A DNA stretch of 64,000 nucleotides from Atlanticothrix silvestris CENA357 (lineage in GTDB: Bacteria; Cyanobacteriota; Cyanobacteriia; Cyanobacteriales; Nostocaceae): contig NZ_JAECZB010000102.1 in the NCBI RefSeq assembly GCF_016056295.1, positions 1-64,000 of the forward strand, in the 5' to 3' direction. The notes below the pieces were generated by a model that was not told the DNA's origin, did no database searches, and saw nothing but the letters and a program-made list of their open reading frames with translations. A program made the translations under genes and the position numbers. Positions 6,563-15,565 of the stretch are shown here, piece by piece. Position 1 is the first letter of the stretch, and every line of letters starts with the position of its first letter.

Positions 6563-8670
6563 ATGCCAAATCATACTGGATACCACATAAACTCTATTCT
6601 CCATGAAGGAATCCAAACGATTATTTATCAAACTCAAACTCCAAAAACGCCACAACGATTTATTCTAAAAGTCTTGAAAAATGAATATCCCACCTTGGAA
6701 GCTTTTACTCGGCTAAAAAATGAGTATCAAATTCAGCAAAACTTAGACCATCCCAATATAGTTAAAGCAATCAGTCTAGAAACTTTTGAAAATCGTGTAG
6801 GGCTATTATTAGAAGATTTTGGGGGCAAATCTTTAGCACAGATACTACAAAACGAAAGCCTAAACTTAATTAACTACTTAAATATTGCTATTCAATTAAC
6901 TAAAGCTTTAGATTATTTACATAAAAACCAAATTATTCATAAAGATATCAAACCTAGTAATATCATTATTAATCCTGAAACAGGTATTGTAAAACTCACA
7001 GATTTTGGTATAGCCTCCTGTCTCAATAAAGAAAACCCACAATTTACTAACCCCAACTCTGTTGAAGGTACACTTGCCTATATGTCTCCCGAACAAACCG
7101 GGAGAATGAATCGCATTCTTGATTACCGTAGTGACTTTTATTCTCTAGGTGTATCTTTATATGAAATGCTCACTGAGCAAATGCCATTTTTTAGCCAAGA
7201 TCCTCTAGAGATAGTTTACAACCACATTGCTGTTCAACCTAAAAAGCCACACTTGATAAATTCTGAAATTCCTAGTGCAGTTTCAGAAATTGTCATGAAG
7301 TTGATGGCAAAAAATGCTGAAGACAGATATCAAAGTGCAACAGGATTATTAGCAGACTTAGAATTATGCCTCAGTCAGCTAAAAACTAAAGGTGAGATTA
7401 CTGACTTTGTACCAGGTCGGTTAGACATTTTAAGTCAGTTACTCATTCCTCAAAAATTATATGGCCGGGAACAACAAGTTAACGAATTATTAGCTGCTTT
7501 TGAGCGTGTTAATTGTGGAACTAGTGAAATGATGCTAGTCTCTGGGTATTCGGGTATCGGTAAATCAGCTTTAGTTAATGAAGTTAATAAACCCAAAATG
7601 ATTTATACGCAGCTTTGCAAGCAGGATTAGTTCTGCCTTTAAACGAAGCTTACCGAATTCCTTTAGTTTTTAATCAAGAAGAAGCTGTTGATTTAAATTT
7701 AGACACATCACGGGTAAGTTATAAATTCTTACATGACAGAGTACAACAGGCTGCTTATTCATTAATCCCAGAAGCCGATAAAAAATCGACTCATCTAAAA
7801 ATAGGTCAATTACTTCTAAAAAATACACCTCAACAAGAAATAGAAGCTAATATTTTTGATATTGTCAATCAATTAAATGTAGGTGTTGATTTTCTCCTTG
7901 AGCAATCTGAGAAAACTGAACTGAAGATGCCATTAACACATCTAAAGCCAACGGTTATCTCCAAGAAGAAGCCTTAGCTTATGAATTAGCAGGGGAATTT
8001 TATTGGTCTTTAGGTAAAGATTTGATTCATCAGACTTATATAACTAAAGCCTATTATGCCTATCTTCGCTGGGGAGCGATCGCAAAAATTAAACACTTAG
8101 AATCAAAATATACTTTTTTAAGAGAACAAACTAGTACTACAGAAACTTCTGCTTTCCAATTAGATGTCACTCACATTGCTACTAAAACTACTACCGTTAA
8201 TGATTTTACAACATCGCTTGAAAGCGAATCATCACCGTCAAGCCATTCAAATAATTAAAGAATATGGAGTTATTCCGGCGGTAAAATGCTATCTGGGGCA
8301 ATTAAATCAAGTATTCATGAATATTTTAGCAAATGCCATTGATGCTTTAGAAGATGCAAATAATAAGCTGAGTTTTGCAGAAATTAAATCAAATCATCCT
8401 AACATTATTACCATCACTACAAAGATGGCTGAAGACCAGCAAAATGTAATGATTAAAATTAAAGACAACGGTAAAGGAATGACAGAAGAAATCAAAACCT
8501 GTATTTTTGATCACCTATTTACGACTAAATCTGTAGGACAAGGTACGGGTTTAGGATTATCTATCAGTCAAAAAATTGTAGTAGAAAATCACGGCGGAAG
8601 TTTGATTTGTGAATCAGCTTTAGGACATGGTACAGAATTTGTGATTTCTATACCTGTCCTAGCTGATTGA
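6563..8670 (+). pseudogene. Relic of a Ser/Thr kinase-ATPase-GAF-histidine kinase, three internal deletions
   Basis: Four collinear pieces match the intact 1812-residue protein at 57922-63360. Piece 1 (6563 to about 7595) has the whole kinase domain (HKDIKPSN, DFG) and the start of the ATPase (GYSGIGKSAL). It then shifts frame into piece 2 (about 7595-7920, LQAGLVLP and FLHDRVQQAAYSLIPEA). Piece 3 (about 7920-8195) begins AINTSKANGYLQEEAL and has YAYLRWGAIAKI. Piece 4 (about 8195-8670) has HRLKANHH and the ATP-binding boxes of the histidine kinase (GTGLGLSISQ) and ends normally. Missing are most of the ATPase, most of the helical middle, and the GAF plus H-box region. About 2.1 kb remains of about 5.4 kb. 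Piece 1 alone (355 codons, ending at 7630) could still yield a free kinase domain. Confidence 0.85.
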
Positions 8671-8680
8671 AATCATTAAA

Positions 8681-8803
8681 AATTATGGCGTTGCTGAGTG
8701 AGAATATGAATTTACCTCACGCAGAGGCGCAGAGTCGCAGAGAGTAAGAGTTGAGAATCCTTGATTTTTGAATTTCATATCTTAATTCAGCAACGCCATA
8801 ATT
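8681..8803. repeat. 123-bp inverted-repeat element
   Basis: AATTATGGCGTTGCTGA at 8681-8697 is perfectly inverted at 8787-8803. Inside lies CGCAGAGGCGCAGAGTCGCAG, then AGAGAGTAAGAGTTG, a motif repeated at about 57675-57710. There is no ORF. It looks like a small non-autonomous element or folded RNA repeat placed between the relic and moaE. Confidence 0.7.
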
Positions 8804-8847
8804 ATTCTTCTTAATTTTTAATTTTACATTTTTAATTTTTAATTCCC

Positions 8848-9339
8848 CTAAGGGGCTGACTGTTCACAAGCATTAATACTTACCCAACTACTAGACAACT
8901 GACCATCTAGTCCGTCATACCATTCCTTTTTCCAAATAGGGGCATTGTGTTTGAGGGTATCAATGGCATATTGGCAAGCTGCAAATGCCTCACCGCGATG
9001 AGGACAACCAACTGCTACTAAAACACTAATTTCTCCAACCTGTAAACGCCCAGTACGATGATAAATTACTACCCGCTGCACATCAGGCCAAGAGGAGCGA
9101 ATATCAGCAGCGATTTGATAAAATACTCGCAATGCCATTGGTTCGTATGCTTGATATTCTAAAGCAACTACAGGTTGTCCATCGGTTTGATTGCGAACCA
9201 TGCCACTCATTACCACTACTGCACCATTGGCTGGGTCATTAGCTTTAGCATAGATTTCTTCAATAGATAATGGCGCAAAGGTAATGGCAAAACTATCTTC
9301 AGTTCTTGGTTTAATTGCAGAATTTAGTGTAGTTGTCAT
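8848..9339 (-). CDS. moaE: Molybdopterin synthase catalytic subunit MoaE
   Basis: MoaE (163 residues) pairs with sulphur-carrying MoaD to insert two thiols into precursor Z, making molybdopterin in the cytosol. Family marks are GAVVVMSGMVRN near 39-50, HRTGRLQVGE (94-103), CPHRGEAF, and the active-site lysines K130 and K137 in LKHNAPIWKKE, spaced as in E. coli K119 and K126. Length is slightly above the E. coli protein because of a 15-residue N-terminal extension. No other molybdenum cofactor gene is nearby. Downstream is only repeat DNA. Confidence 0.95.
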   Translation of the reverse strand: MTTTLNSAIKPRTEDSFAITFAPLSIEEIYAKANDPANGAVVVMSGMVRNQTDGQPVVALEYQAYEPMALRVFYQIAADIRSSWPDVQRVVIYHRTGRLQVGEISVLVAVGCPHRGEAFAACQYAIDTLKHNAPIWKKEWYDGLDGQLSSSWVSINACEQSAP

Positions 9340-10777: not shown

Positions 10778-10804
10778 AAAATAATAAAACCAAACCCTTC
10801 CCCT

Positions 10805-12502
10805 TTACCCTTTCCCCATTTCCCCTTTCCCGTTCTTCGGTAAGCTAACTATAAATTTAGTTCCTTGACCCACCTGACTGGATAAGGTAATGTTACCGCC
10901 ATGTAAATCTACACAAGCTTTAGAAATTGCCAGTCCTAAGCCTGTTCCAGGAATTGTATCGACGTTACTTCCACGGCTGAAAGATTGAAACAAGTTTTCT
11001 TGATCTGCGATTGGTATACCAATTCCCTGATCTTTGATAGAAAACATCACTTGTGATTCTTTACCGATGAGGTGAAACTCGATCGCACCGCCCTCTGGAG
11101 AGTACTTAATTGCATTAGACATTAAGTTGACAAAGATTTGCTGTAAGAGTCCGCGATCGCCCCAAAAGCCTTTAGTATTACCAGTGATTTTAAAAATCAA
11201 TTCGTGATGTTCCCCGACTGTCTCTCGTTCTTGTTCAATTAACTCAGAGAAAAATTGCAACAAATCGAGTGGAACTGGTTTAAATTTAGTGTTATCCAGT
11301 TCAAATTGGTTAACTAAAAGCATATTATCCACAAGCTTGGACATATATCTTGCTTTATGCTCAATAATTCCCAAAAATCTCTGTTGTCTAGACTCATCTA
11401 GTTGCTGGCTATGTTTTACCAGAGTTGATGCAGCCGCAAGAATTGAAGTTAAAGGTGTTCGACATTCATGGGAAACTGTGCCAATGATTTGGGATCTAAA
11501 AAGGTTGAGTTGCTGTTCTTTTACTAAAGCTGCTTGAGTTTGGGCTAATAATTCAGCTTGTTGGATAGCGATCGCTAATTGTACCGATACTTCATAGAGC
11601 ATTTCCACATCATCATGTTGCCACTGCCGCTCTTCTGAACTGTGGTGAGCCACTAACAAACCCCAAAGCTTGGGAGTTGGGTTGCCGTTGTTACTGATAT
11701 TAATGGGAACTACTATATTTGCTTCAGTGTTAAATTGCTCTTTGAGGGTGACACAATTACTTAAACCAACTTCATAAACGTAAGAAATTGGAATCTGAAT
11801 ATTGGGTAAAGACAAAGCGGACAAGTTAGTAGAAATTTCTGTTTTTCCCCTCGTTCCCAATCCCCAGTTTCCACTCCCGACGCGATTTTCCAGAGCTAAA
11901 GTGCGACGTGATTCTACTGAGGAGGCGACTATTTTACCACTCATATCTGAGGCAAATTTATACACTATGACGCGCTCACATTTGAGAAGTTGTTGTACCT
12001 CCGCTACAGCAGTATTCAAAATTTGCTCTAGGTTCAAAGATTGGCGAATCCGCAGCGCAGTCGTCGCTATAAGGCGCTGTCGCTCTTGAGTTTTGTTGAG
12101 TTGGGCTTGTAAATAAGATTGTTTGATGGCGTTGCGGACTGCTAATTGCAGTACATCTGGTTTAAGGTTTTGCTTGACTAAATAATCTAAAGCACCTCGT
12201 TTCATGGCTTGTACTGCCACTTCTTCATCACCACGCCCAGTTAACATAATCACGGGCACAGCTGTCTTAAATATCTCCTGCTTAAGTTTATCGAAGAGTT
12301 CTAATCCACTCAGATCAGGTAGGCAAAAATCCAGCAAAATGGCATCGCAGTGGATTTTTTGGCACAAGACCAGCGCATCTTCTGCACAGTCAGCCTCCAA
12401 AATATGGTACGACTGGTGCGGATCTCGTAAAAGATGTCGACGATAGATTTTTCGATCTGCTGCACAATCATCGATGATGAGTAGCGTCCGTATGTCCAAC
12501 AT
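10805..12502 (-). CDS. Response regulator receiver-GAF-histidine kinase
   Basis: Order in this 565-residue protein: REC domain (about 5-125, phospho-acceptor D58 in ILLDFCLPDLSG), GAF domain (about 145-320), then histidine kinase with H345 in VSHECRTPL and ATP boxes GIGIPIADQENLF and GTGLGLAISK. The GAF resembles cyanobacteriochrome bilin-binding GAFs (LNLEQILNTAVAEVQQLL, LWGLLVAHHSSEERQWQ). C250 sits where the bilin cysteine should be, but its usual His partner is Val, and the preceding loop holds a glycine-rich low-complexity segment (residues 209-221). It follows the phytochrome and Rcp1-type gene on the same strand after a 287-nt gap. The last residues (GKGEMGKG) come from a purine heptamer repeat. 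Confidence 0.85.
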   Translation of the reverse strand: MLDIRTLLIIDDCAADRKIYRRHLLRDPHQSYHILEADCAEDALVLCQKIHCDAILLDFCLPDLSGLELFDKLKQEIFKTAVPVIMLTGRGDEEVAVQAMKRGALDYLVKQNLKPDVLQLAVRNAIKQSYLQAQLNKTQERQRLIATTALRIRQSLNLEQILNTAVAEVQQLLKCERVIVYKFASDMSGKIVASSVESRRTLALENRVGSGNWGLGTRGKTEISTNLSALSLPNIQIPISYVYEVGLSNCVTLKEQFNTEANIVVPINISNNGNPTPKLWGLLVAHHSSEERQWQHDDVEMLYEVSVQLAIAIQQAELLAQTQAALVKEQQLNLFRSQIIGTVSHECRTPLTSILAAASTLVKHSQQLDESRQQRFLGIIEHKARYMSKLVDNMLLVNQFELDNTKFKPVPLDLLQFFSELIEQERETVGEHHELIFKITGNTKGFWGDRGLLQQIFVNLMSNAIKYSPEGGAIEFHLIGKESQVMFSIKDQGIGIPIADQENLFQSFSRGSNVDTIPGTGLGLAISKACVDLHGGNITLSSQVGQGTKFIVSLPKNGKGEMGKG

Positions 12503-12789: not shown

Positions 12790-13245
12790 TTAATCCAACC
12801 CAGGCGGAGTATTTACCTCTAGCCAGTAGTCTACGAATGCCTGAATTGTTTTTTTTAGTTCCTGAGCATCCATCGGTTTTACCAGATAACCATTTGCCCC
12901 CTTTTGGTAGCATAATTCAATGTCTTTGGGGTTAGATGATGTGGTAAACACCACAATGGGAATTTCTCTGAAACTTTTGTCTTGTTTGAGACGCTCTAGA
13001 ATGTCACGACCATCAATACCAGGTAAGTTGAGGTCGAGCAAAATAACAGAAGGTCTTAGCGCTACTTTAGAGTTGCGTAAGGCATCGCTTTTTTGTTGAT
13101 AGAGGAACTCTAAAACCTCATCTCCATTAGTACAACGGTGTATGGGGTTCTGGACTGCCATGCGCCGCATCAGGCGTTGTAGCATCCGAAAGTCTTCATT
13201 GCTGTCCTCAACAACGAGCAGCGGTTCATGAAGTTTTGTTGTCAT
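12790..13245 (-). CDS. rcp1: Rcp1-type single-domain response regulator
   Basis: This is a 151-residue CheY-like protein with no output domain. The phospho-acceptor is D71 in VILLDLNLPGIDG, with the acidic pair near the N-terminus (VVEDSNEDF) and the conserved Lys in YLVKPMD. The length and the 40-50 region (GDEVLEFLYQQ) match Rcp1, the partner of cyanobacterial phytochrome Cph1. It starts 52 nt after the phytochrome stop on the same strand, as in the known cph1-rcp1 operon, so phosphotransfer from that kinase is very likely. Confidence 0.92.
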   Translation of the reverse strand: MTTKLHEPLLVVEDSNEDFRMLQRLMRRMAVQNPIHRCTNGDEVLEFLYQQKSDALRNSKVALRPSVILLDLNLPGIDGRDILERLKQDKSFREIPIVVFTTSSNPKDIELCYQKGANGYLVKPMDAQELKKTIQAFVDYWLEVNTPPGLD

Positions 13246-13297: not shown

Positions 13298-15565
13298 CTA
13301 TTCCAGCGTAAAGTAGAACGTCGAGCCAACAGTTAAGCTAGATTCGACCCAGATTTGACCTTCATGCAGTTCTATAATCTTCTTAACAATTGCGAGTCCT
13401 GCACCTGCGCCTCCACCGTATTTTTCTTGGGAGTGGAGCCGTTTAAAGAGTCGAAAAATAGTTTCTAGGTGATGTTCTGGAATACCAATACCGTTATCGC
13501 GGATATAAAAAACAGGAGTTACAGAAGTTTGGTCTAAAAGGTGTTGGTCTGCATCCAAGTAACCAATTTCAACCCATCGCTCTACTTTATCGTTGTATTT
13601 GAACGCATTGCCAATGAGGTTACTGAAAACTTCGTTAACAAGAACTTGGTAACACTGCATTGTCGGTAAAGGGCGGGGAACGCGAATATTAATCAGCTGG
13701 GAGTTTTGGCGACTGGCGCGAAAAACTTCAATCACCTGATTGAGCAATTCGTTGAGGTCGGTTATTTCTAGGCGCAGTTGTGCTTGTCCTAACTGCGAAA
13801 GCCTTAGTAAAGCATTAATTAGAGTTTCCATTCGCACAGACAAAGATACCACTGTCTGCAAACACTCGACTCCCTCATCATCTAGGATTTCGGCATAGTC
13901 TTCTAACAGAACTGTCGAGAAGTTATAAATACCCCGCAAAGGCTCCTTAAGATCGTGAGAAGCTGCATAAGCAAAAGAAGCTAGTTCTCGGTTGCTGCGC
14001 TCTAACTCTAAATTAATTTTGGCTAATTCATCGGCTTTTGAGAGGACAATACCCACGATCGCATTTTTGAGAGCAAGGGCACTTTCTAGTTCAGATGGTT
14101 GCCAAGGTAGAGAAGTTAATCGCACTGTCTCTTGCCATTGTTCAAAGGATTTTCGCGGACAAAGGGTAATGCTGCCATCTGCCTCAAATTGTATGGAGTC
14201 GTTGGGATTACCCGCCCAATTGACTATTTGAATAACTTCAGGGCGAAACCAGAGAATGTAATAGCGCCGGACTTGAGAAATTCGCAGTAACAGCAAGCCG
14301 CTGGCTGCATCTTTAAATGCGACAGCCCTAGGGTTAAGCTGCGGTAGAGAATCGGTAGAAAATAGATTATCGCTAACTTGATTGTTTGCCCATTCTACTA
14401 ATGCCCGCACCTGAGCAATATTTGGTGTTTCTCCGACAAGGGTAATTTCATGATCTAAACAAACCGCTGCACCAGAAGCACTGACAAGATCTAGCAAGCG
14501 GATTTCTGGTTTGATAAGAGCATCTATAAAATTGTCTGCCTGCGAAATGGATGCTAATAACTCAGACTGTAGCGATTTGAGTTTTACTTTATAGTCCCAT
14601 TCCGAATGACTAATTTTGTTTGCTAACTCTGATGACACAATCTGTCCCAACAATTCACACATCTTCCGAACTTCATAAGAAATATACTTGGGAGTTTGAT
14701 GATGACAGGATATTAACCCCCAAAGCTGCTGCTCTTGAATTAACGAAATCACTAGCACAGCCGCCACGCCCATATTTTGATGATATTCAGCACAACATGA
14801 ACCAAAACTGCGTAGTACAGAGTAGCTTAAATCAAGAGGCTGATGTGTTATGGGATTTTCAGTTGGAATTAGTTTGACAGATTGAGCAGTTAAATCAGGA
14901 ATGAATCGCAGCCAGCAGCGCTTGTATAATTCTCTCGCTGGTTCTGGAATATCTGTTGCTGGATAGTGGAGTCCTAAATAAGGTGATAAATTATCTCGTT
15001 TGACTTCGGCAATTACAGAACCCGCTTGCTGCTGATCAAATTGGTAGACCATTACCCGGTCAAAACCTGTGATTTTTTGAACTTCTTCAGCTACGAGATG
15101 CAAAAATTCTCTTAGGTTTGATGTGTTTTGCATAGTAGCGATCGCTTCACTCGCCCAAGCCTGGAAACTCAAAAAACTCAACTCAGACCTAGAGTCAATC
15201 AATTCTAGTTCCAAAATTAGAGCATCTGCTGTGCGATGAGCAATACTTTCAAAGTATCGCTCACCAATCAAAGTCATAATTGTTACTTTAACACCAGTAG
15301 TAGTACCAATTTTTTTGGTGAAAGAATGCTTAATTGTTTCTGTTTGCCGAGCATCAAACAAGTAGCTTAAAGGTTGACCCAGCAAATCCTCTGGCTCTCT
15401 ACCCAAGTATTCTTGGGTATTGTGGCTAACTTGCAGGATCTCCAACTCGTTACTAAGTACTAGTAGGACACCGTGAGGTTGAATAGAGCCAGGTAAATGA
15501 ATAGCTTTGCGATCGTGGTTAGTCAGAGAATTAGTTGGGGCTATAGTATCTTCAGACTGGCTCAT
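13298..15565 (-). CDS. Cph1-type phytochrome histidine kinase
   Basis: The order is PAS (about 20-125), GAF (about 140-310), PHY (about 330-505) and histidine kinase (about 520-755), total 755. Marks include IHLPGSIQPHG in PAS, YPATDIPEPAR in GAF (D205), the PHY tongue motif PRKSF (470-474), H537 in AASHDLKEPLRG and the box GGAGAGLAIVKK. The N-terminal cysteine of bacteriophytochromes is absent, so bilin attachment should use the GAF cysteine. That cysteine (C257) is present, but the usual CH.. motif reads CCAEYH: the conserved His after it is a second Cys (C258). It would sense red and far-red light and pass phosphate to the Rcp1-type protein encoded next. Confidence 0.93.
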   Translation of the reverse strand: MSQSEDTIAPTNSLTNHDRKAIHLPGSIQPHGVLLVLSNELEILQVSHNTQEYLGREPEDLLGQPLSYLFDARQTETIKHSFTKKIGTTTGVKVTIMTLIGERYFESIAHRTADALILELELIDSRSELSFLSFQAWASEAIATMQNTSNLREFLHLVAEEVQKITGFDRVMVYQFDQQQAGSVIAEVKRDNLSPYLGLHYPATDIPEPARELYKRCWLRFIPDLTAQSVKLIPTENPITHQPLDLSYSVLRSFGSCCAEYHQNMGVAAVLVISLIQEQQLWGLISCHHQTPKYISYEVRKMCELLGQIVSSELANKISHSEWDYKVKLKSLQSELLASISQADNFIDALIKPEIRLLDLVSASGAAVCLDHEITLVGETPNIAQVRALVEWANNQVSDNLFSTDSLPQLNPRAVAFKDAASGLLLLRISQVRRYYILWFRPEVIQIVNWAGNPNDSIQFEADGSITLCPRKSFEQWQETVRLTSLPWQPSELESALALKNAIVGIVLSKADELAKINLELERSNRELASFAYAASHDLKEPLRGIYNFSTVLLEDYAEILDDEGVECLQTVVSLSVRMETLINALLRLSQLGQAQLRLEITDLNELLNQVIEVFRASRQNSQLINIRVPRPLPTMQCYQVLVNEVFSNLIGNAFKYNDKVERWVEIGYLDADQHLLDQTSVTPVFYIRDNGIGIPEHHLETIFRLFKRLHSQEKYGGGAGAGLAIVKKIIELHEGQIWVESSLTVGSTFYFTLE

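Follow-up and report, generated by a model that had tools for sequence, protein, structure and literature searches.

What kind of light sensor results when the histidine that follows the bilin-attachment cysteine of a phytochrome is replaced by a second cysteine? The question is raised by a 755-residue open reading frame on the (-) strand of a contig from the cyanobacterium Atlanticothrix silvestris CENA357, at 13298–15565 of the window (the whole 64,000-nucleotide stretch analysed here). A sequence-only reading had treated this substitution as possibly unusual, and suggested that the additional thiol might change the tuning, allow a different adduct, or reduce photoconversion. From its sequence and by analogy with related photoreceptors, the protein is, at a probability of roughly 0.87, a tandem-cysteine cyanobacterial phytochrome (TCCP), a class whose first member was NpTP1 of Nostoc punctiforme, in which Cys258 would form an adduct with the C10 bridge of the chromophore and give a violet/blue dark state.

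The tandem cysteine and its domain context

The protein is composed of PAS_2 (residues 18–121), GAF (150–315), PHY (330–510), HisKA (530–593) and HATPase_c (643–754) domains, all five exceeding their Pfam cut-offs. The GAF domain contains the motif LRSFGSCCAEYHQNMGV, in which Cys257 and Cys258 are encoded by TGT TGT at 14797–14792 (14795–14797 and 14792–14794 respectively; all positions given for this gene are on the (-) strand). In gapless phmmer alignments these residues pair with the bilin cysteine and the following histidine of both Cph1 (2vea; Cys259, the canonical attachment residue, and His260) and the Fischerella protein FiDCB (9jry), confirming that Cys-Cys stands where Cph1 has Cys-His. 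An AlphaFold2 model of the protein (mean pLDDT 81.3, pTM 0.62, 14 sequences), whose fold matches Cph1 and others in Foldseek, places the motif in a GAF helix spanning residues 256–264, with a mean pLDDT of 83 for residues 251–260 and 89 for residues 261–270. On the gapless alignment and the predicted helix, a position for the second cysteine outside the chromophore pocket was rejected.

Three further pocket residues differ from Cph1. The reported change of leucine to histidine after the tyrosine is real, with His262 (14780–14782) occupying the position of Cph1 Leu264, four residues beyond Cys258 in the same predicted helix, and Val270 (14756–14758) and Val272 (14750–14752) replace Cph1 Ser272 and Thr274. 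The N-terminal attachment cysteine is absent, as had been stated, its position in bacteriophytochromes being taken by His17 (15515–15517). The motifs said to be intact are all present, namely DIP (residues 205–207; 14945–14953), the PRxSF of the PHY tongue, here PRKSF (residues 470–474; 14144–14158), and the HisKA phospho-acceptor His537 (13955–13957); His288 (14702–14704) corresponds to Cph1 His290.

A single lineage with a shared pocket

The distribution of the tandem cysteine (CC) was assessed in a set of photosensory modules from three sources. A species-genome scan gave 77 loci from the best 80 stretches; its six peptides included CAEYHQNM and NHDRKAIH, so these loci are biased towards CC, and a first alignment had CC in 66 of 73 rows, with the window entered twice (the second time as L003). 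As a contrast, a PHY family search of 120 genomes of the order found matches in 86, summing to 141, of which 112 were examined (30 loci, 80 fetched, the paralogue L002 and the window) and the 29 lowest-scoring left out. Lastly, a loose DNA pattern, CC..Y/F..NM, matched 123 of 386 genomes of the phylum; among the matches listed, 12 besides the window look like phytochromes by eye and the others like chance, and these 12 are all CC, with three repeating species-scan loci (duplicates removed). From 207 open reading frame pieces with a match, 18 were removed (nine duplicates, nine partial or odd), leaving 189 and the window.

The resulting 190 rows comprise 76 CC, 72 Cys-His (CH) and 42 others. 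By source, CC occurs in 61/66 species-scan loci, 2/79 fetched PHY-search loci, 0/32 other PHY-search loci and paralogue loci of the window's own genome (L005, one of these 32, is a doubtful row with a tree branch of 6.14), and 12/12 pattern-derived places, plus the window. A chance variant of one strain was rejected on these counts, and the suspicion that CC might be unusual did not hold; it is common to Nostocales and some Leptolyngbyaceae. Nor is a sequencing or assembly error at 14790–14800 a credible explanation. No point in its favour was found, and it is refuted by the occurrence of the motif in other genomes with both synonymous codons: TGT 57 and TGC 21 for Cys257, and TGT 71 and TGC 7 for Cys258, in 78 motif occurrences that include a few loci fetched twice and were retrieved by a pattern itself demanding Cys codons.

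A quick tree of 96 rows (27 of them CC) retained after identity thinning, with the signature columns masked, has the CC rows filling one side of a single branch (one change; SH-aLRT 91), so the tandem cysteine marks a lineage and was probably gained once. FastTree applied to all 190 rows again recovered one CC clade, with a support of only 0.633; both trees were built from sequences none of which is known by name as a published TCCP. L221, a long-branched CH row, joins just below the CC rows in the 96-row tree. Some genomes hold two CC phytochromes (L038/L048, L050/L055, L054/L076 and L223/L224), which differ in motif context within a genome, for example LRSTHPCC and LRGVDPCC, and L223 and L224 lie in separate parts of the clade in the 96-row tree.

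The clade shares more of its pocket than the cysteine. At Cph1 position 260, Cys is found in none of the 114 non-CC rows. Position 264 is His in 73 and Tyr in three of the 76 CC rows, as against Leu in 107, Met in six and Cys in one of the others, none of which has His or Tyr. Position 272 is hydrophobic in every CC row (Leu, Ile, Val, Phe or Met, and never Ser or Thr), compared with Ser 101, Thr 11, Cys 1 and Gly 1 elsewhere; position 274 is Val in 73, Ala in two and Ile in one, compared with mostly Ser (48) or Thr (48), and Val in 13, of the non-CC rows. Given the single origin on the tree, the joint occurrence of C260 and H/Y264 counts as one inherited event rather than many independent ones. 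Moreover, another thirteen columns satisfy the same strict between-group difference test, eight of them within PHY, and part of the signature is therefore plain shared descent. The combination of C260, H264, L/I272 and V274 is, at the level of sequence, a possible addition to the described class, part of which may already have been treated in the TCCP paper. Rare residues were also seen outside the clade: L204 (G436), a CH phytochrome, carries Cys at 264, and L069, a proteobacterial sequence from Noviherbaspirillum that is non-CC, has Ile-Tyr at 259–260.

The loss of the usual His260, Ser272 and Thr274 might suggest a decaying or light-insensitive phytochrome-like kinase whose pocket function has gone, yet the rest of the pocket makes this very improbable. 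Y176, D207, P209, R222 and R254 are kept in 76/76 CC rows, H290 in 75/76, and R472, S474 and F475 in 75/76, with a gap in the remaining row; the ring-A cysteine is kept by definition of CC. Both Cys codons show the synonymous changes noted above, within a set selected for Cys codons, and the gene cassette described below is mostly retained. As these other photochemical residues are conserved in the clade, the proposal of reduced photoconversion also became less likely, while that of a different adduct or changed tuning fits the known class.

Gene neighbourhood and the kinase loop

The TCCP candidate lies in a conserved gene order. A single-domain response regulator of 151 amino acids (12790–13245, (-) strand) lies 52 bases downstream, followed by a conserved third gene encoding a response regulator-GAF-histidine kinase hybrid of 565 amino acids (10805–12502, (-) strand). 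Among the 64 CC loci of the species scan, 59 have at least 700 bases downstream, and in 54 of these the regulator lies within 200 bases. It is further off in L024, L033 and L070; at L063 it is 56 bases downstream of the CC phytochrome, a case outside the 54/59 count; and at L041 no regulator open reading frame of at least 120 amino acids was found within the 5 kb examined. Of the 56 CC loci with at least 1.5 kb, 50 have the hybrid kinase (at least 50% identity) starting within 2.5 kb; it is also present at L063, about 4 kb away at L038, and absent from the stretch examined at L040, L041, L050 and L072. This phytochrome/response regulator/hybrid kinase cassette is a second possible addition to the described class. 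At L024 an insertion seems to have divided the cassette, as a 198-residue open reading frame (7340–7936) separates the phytochrome from the regulator (8541–9020).

Two repetitive features were observed in this region. At the 3′ end of the hybrid kinase open reading frame lies a 7-base tandem repeat, TTCCCCT, of 4.7 copies (window 10798–10831). Within the HATPase_c domain of the phytochrome, a loop following WVEIGYL (residues 673–685; 13511–13549) has a counterpart in other CC loci and is hypervariable, with lengths of 6 to 78 residues among rows matching the pattern. It contains repeated low-complexity stretches, among them GAGGAGG, GDEGDEG and PMPHAPC, which are perhaps translated heptanucleotide repeats, and the contigs of L034, L035, L036 and L039 terminate within or close to it.

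Proposed photochemistry and relation to known systems

In canonical phytochromes the histidine at this position lies over the A–C ring nitrogens and is joined to them via the pyrrole water (PMC5928327, PMC11264168). Substituting Cph1 His260 can cost chromophorylation, and the H260Q variant has a shifted apparent pKa in each photostate (PMC12420706). A thiol at this position lies near the bilin. Among cyanobacteriochromes of the dual-Cys kind, addition of the second cysteine to C10 interrupts the conjugation and shifts the absorption of the pigment to the blue (PMC5240096; the second thioether at C10 and the blue shift also in PMC5578081), and in most of them photoconversion involves breaking and re-forming this bond (PMC5240096).

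In the window protein, Cys257, aligned with Cph1 Cys259, would bind phycocyanobilin (PCB) at ring A, and Cys258, in place of the pyrrole-water histidine, would in the dark add reversibly to the C10 bridge, splitting the conjugated system to give a violet/blue-absorbing 15Z state. Light would flip the D ring, the second bond would break and a longer-wavelength 15E product would form; the histidine kinase would presumably receive the signal via the PHY tongue and hand it on to the neighbouring response regulator. The genome has four bilin reductases, three of them named, and can make PCB, since one is PcyA, scoring 375.7 bits against an NCBIfam cut-off of 206. TCCPs reportedly have violet-blue dark states with doubly thioether-linked PCB, and are said to form yellow-orange and red photoproducts in which PCB is singly linked.

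An improbable alternative is a red/far-red phytochrome whose proton chemistry has changed, with Cys258 forming no adduct and His262 assuming the pyrrole-water role of His260. Consistent with this, Cph1 H260Q still yields relatively normal Pfr (PMC12420706). His262 also lies one turn on from Cys258 in the predicted helix, and the His/Tyr at 264 is exclusive to the CC rows, as above. Nevertheless, a thiol so placed within a PCB pocket may well form an adduct, as happens in dual-Cys relatives, and the known TCCPs reportedly absorb violet/blue light in their dark state. His264 and the changes at 272 and 274 could still produce a different photochemical outcome in the window protein. Within the TCCP assignment, a tentative and rather doubtful extension is that the polar side of the pocket has been rebuilt, with the histidine shifted from 260 to 264 (Tyr in three of 76) and the 272/274 hydroxyls lost, so that His264, as the acid/base that protonates and deprotonates the Cys260 thiol, may tune with it the making and breaking of the adduct, and the class, signalling via the three-gene relay, would feed violet light into a multistep phosphorelay.

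Among solved structures, the best sequence matches listed are the full-length bacteriophytochromes 8uph and 9ys3, followed by FiDCB and Cph1; no structure named as a TCCP is among the matches listed from the sequence and fold searches. Cph1, the Synechocystis red/far-red phytochrome, shares the photosensory domain order, attachment cysteine, DIP and PRxSF (41–44% identity in Foldseek alignments), but its His260, Leu264, Ser272 and Thr274 are all replaced, and a Cph1-type phytochrome was rejected for want of Cys-His at 259–260. FiDCB, a dual-Cys phytochrome, is the top solved photosensory-module construct by sequence among the matches listed (E 3.2e-150, residues 6–513) and likewise has the GAF cysteine; it combines CH with an N-terminal Cys, whereas the window protein has CC and an N-terminal His. 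A bacteriophytochrome with biliverdin on the N-terminal Cys was rejected on His17, and a cyanobacteriochrome, with a bilin GAF lacking PAS and PHY, on the presence of PAS_2 and PHY. Two more phytochromes with complete PHY matches are encoded in the same genome, the CphA-like L001 (CH) and the CphB-like L002. L002, of the CphB/bacteriophytochrome type, is alike in its PAS-GAF-PHY region (49% identity), and unlike the window protein has an N-terminal Cys and Leu-His at 259–260.

PMC12420706 (2025) counts violet responders among cyanobacterial phytochromes (its refs 5–8, including papers on a two-cysteine photocycle, ref. 5, and on TCCPs, ref. 7), and cites the latter class to Song et al. 2020, J Biol Chem 295:6754; the portions available of PMC3546692, PMC4525182, PMC9705869, PMC6121604 and PMC13193486 hold nothing on it. 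The outcome is mainly a confirmation: raw sequence had sufficed to recognise the hallmark of a phytochrome class already known. The pocket signature and cassette offer targets for understanding how a red/far-red pocket was converted to violet sensing, and bear on what the sensor controls in Nostocales. Compared with TCCPs by their described features, the window protein showed no difference. It has CC at Cph1 259 and 260, the PAS-GAF-PHY-histidine kinase layout, membership of the one CC lineage and a Nostocales host, and is a well-conserved, ordinary member of the class already described rather than a novelty.
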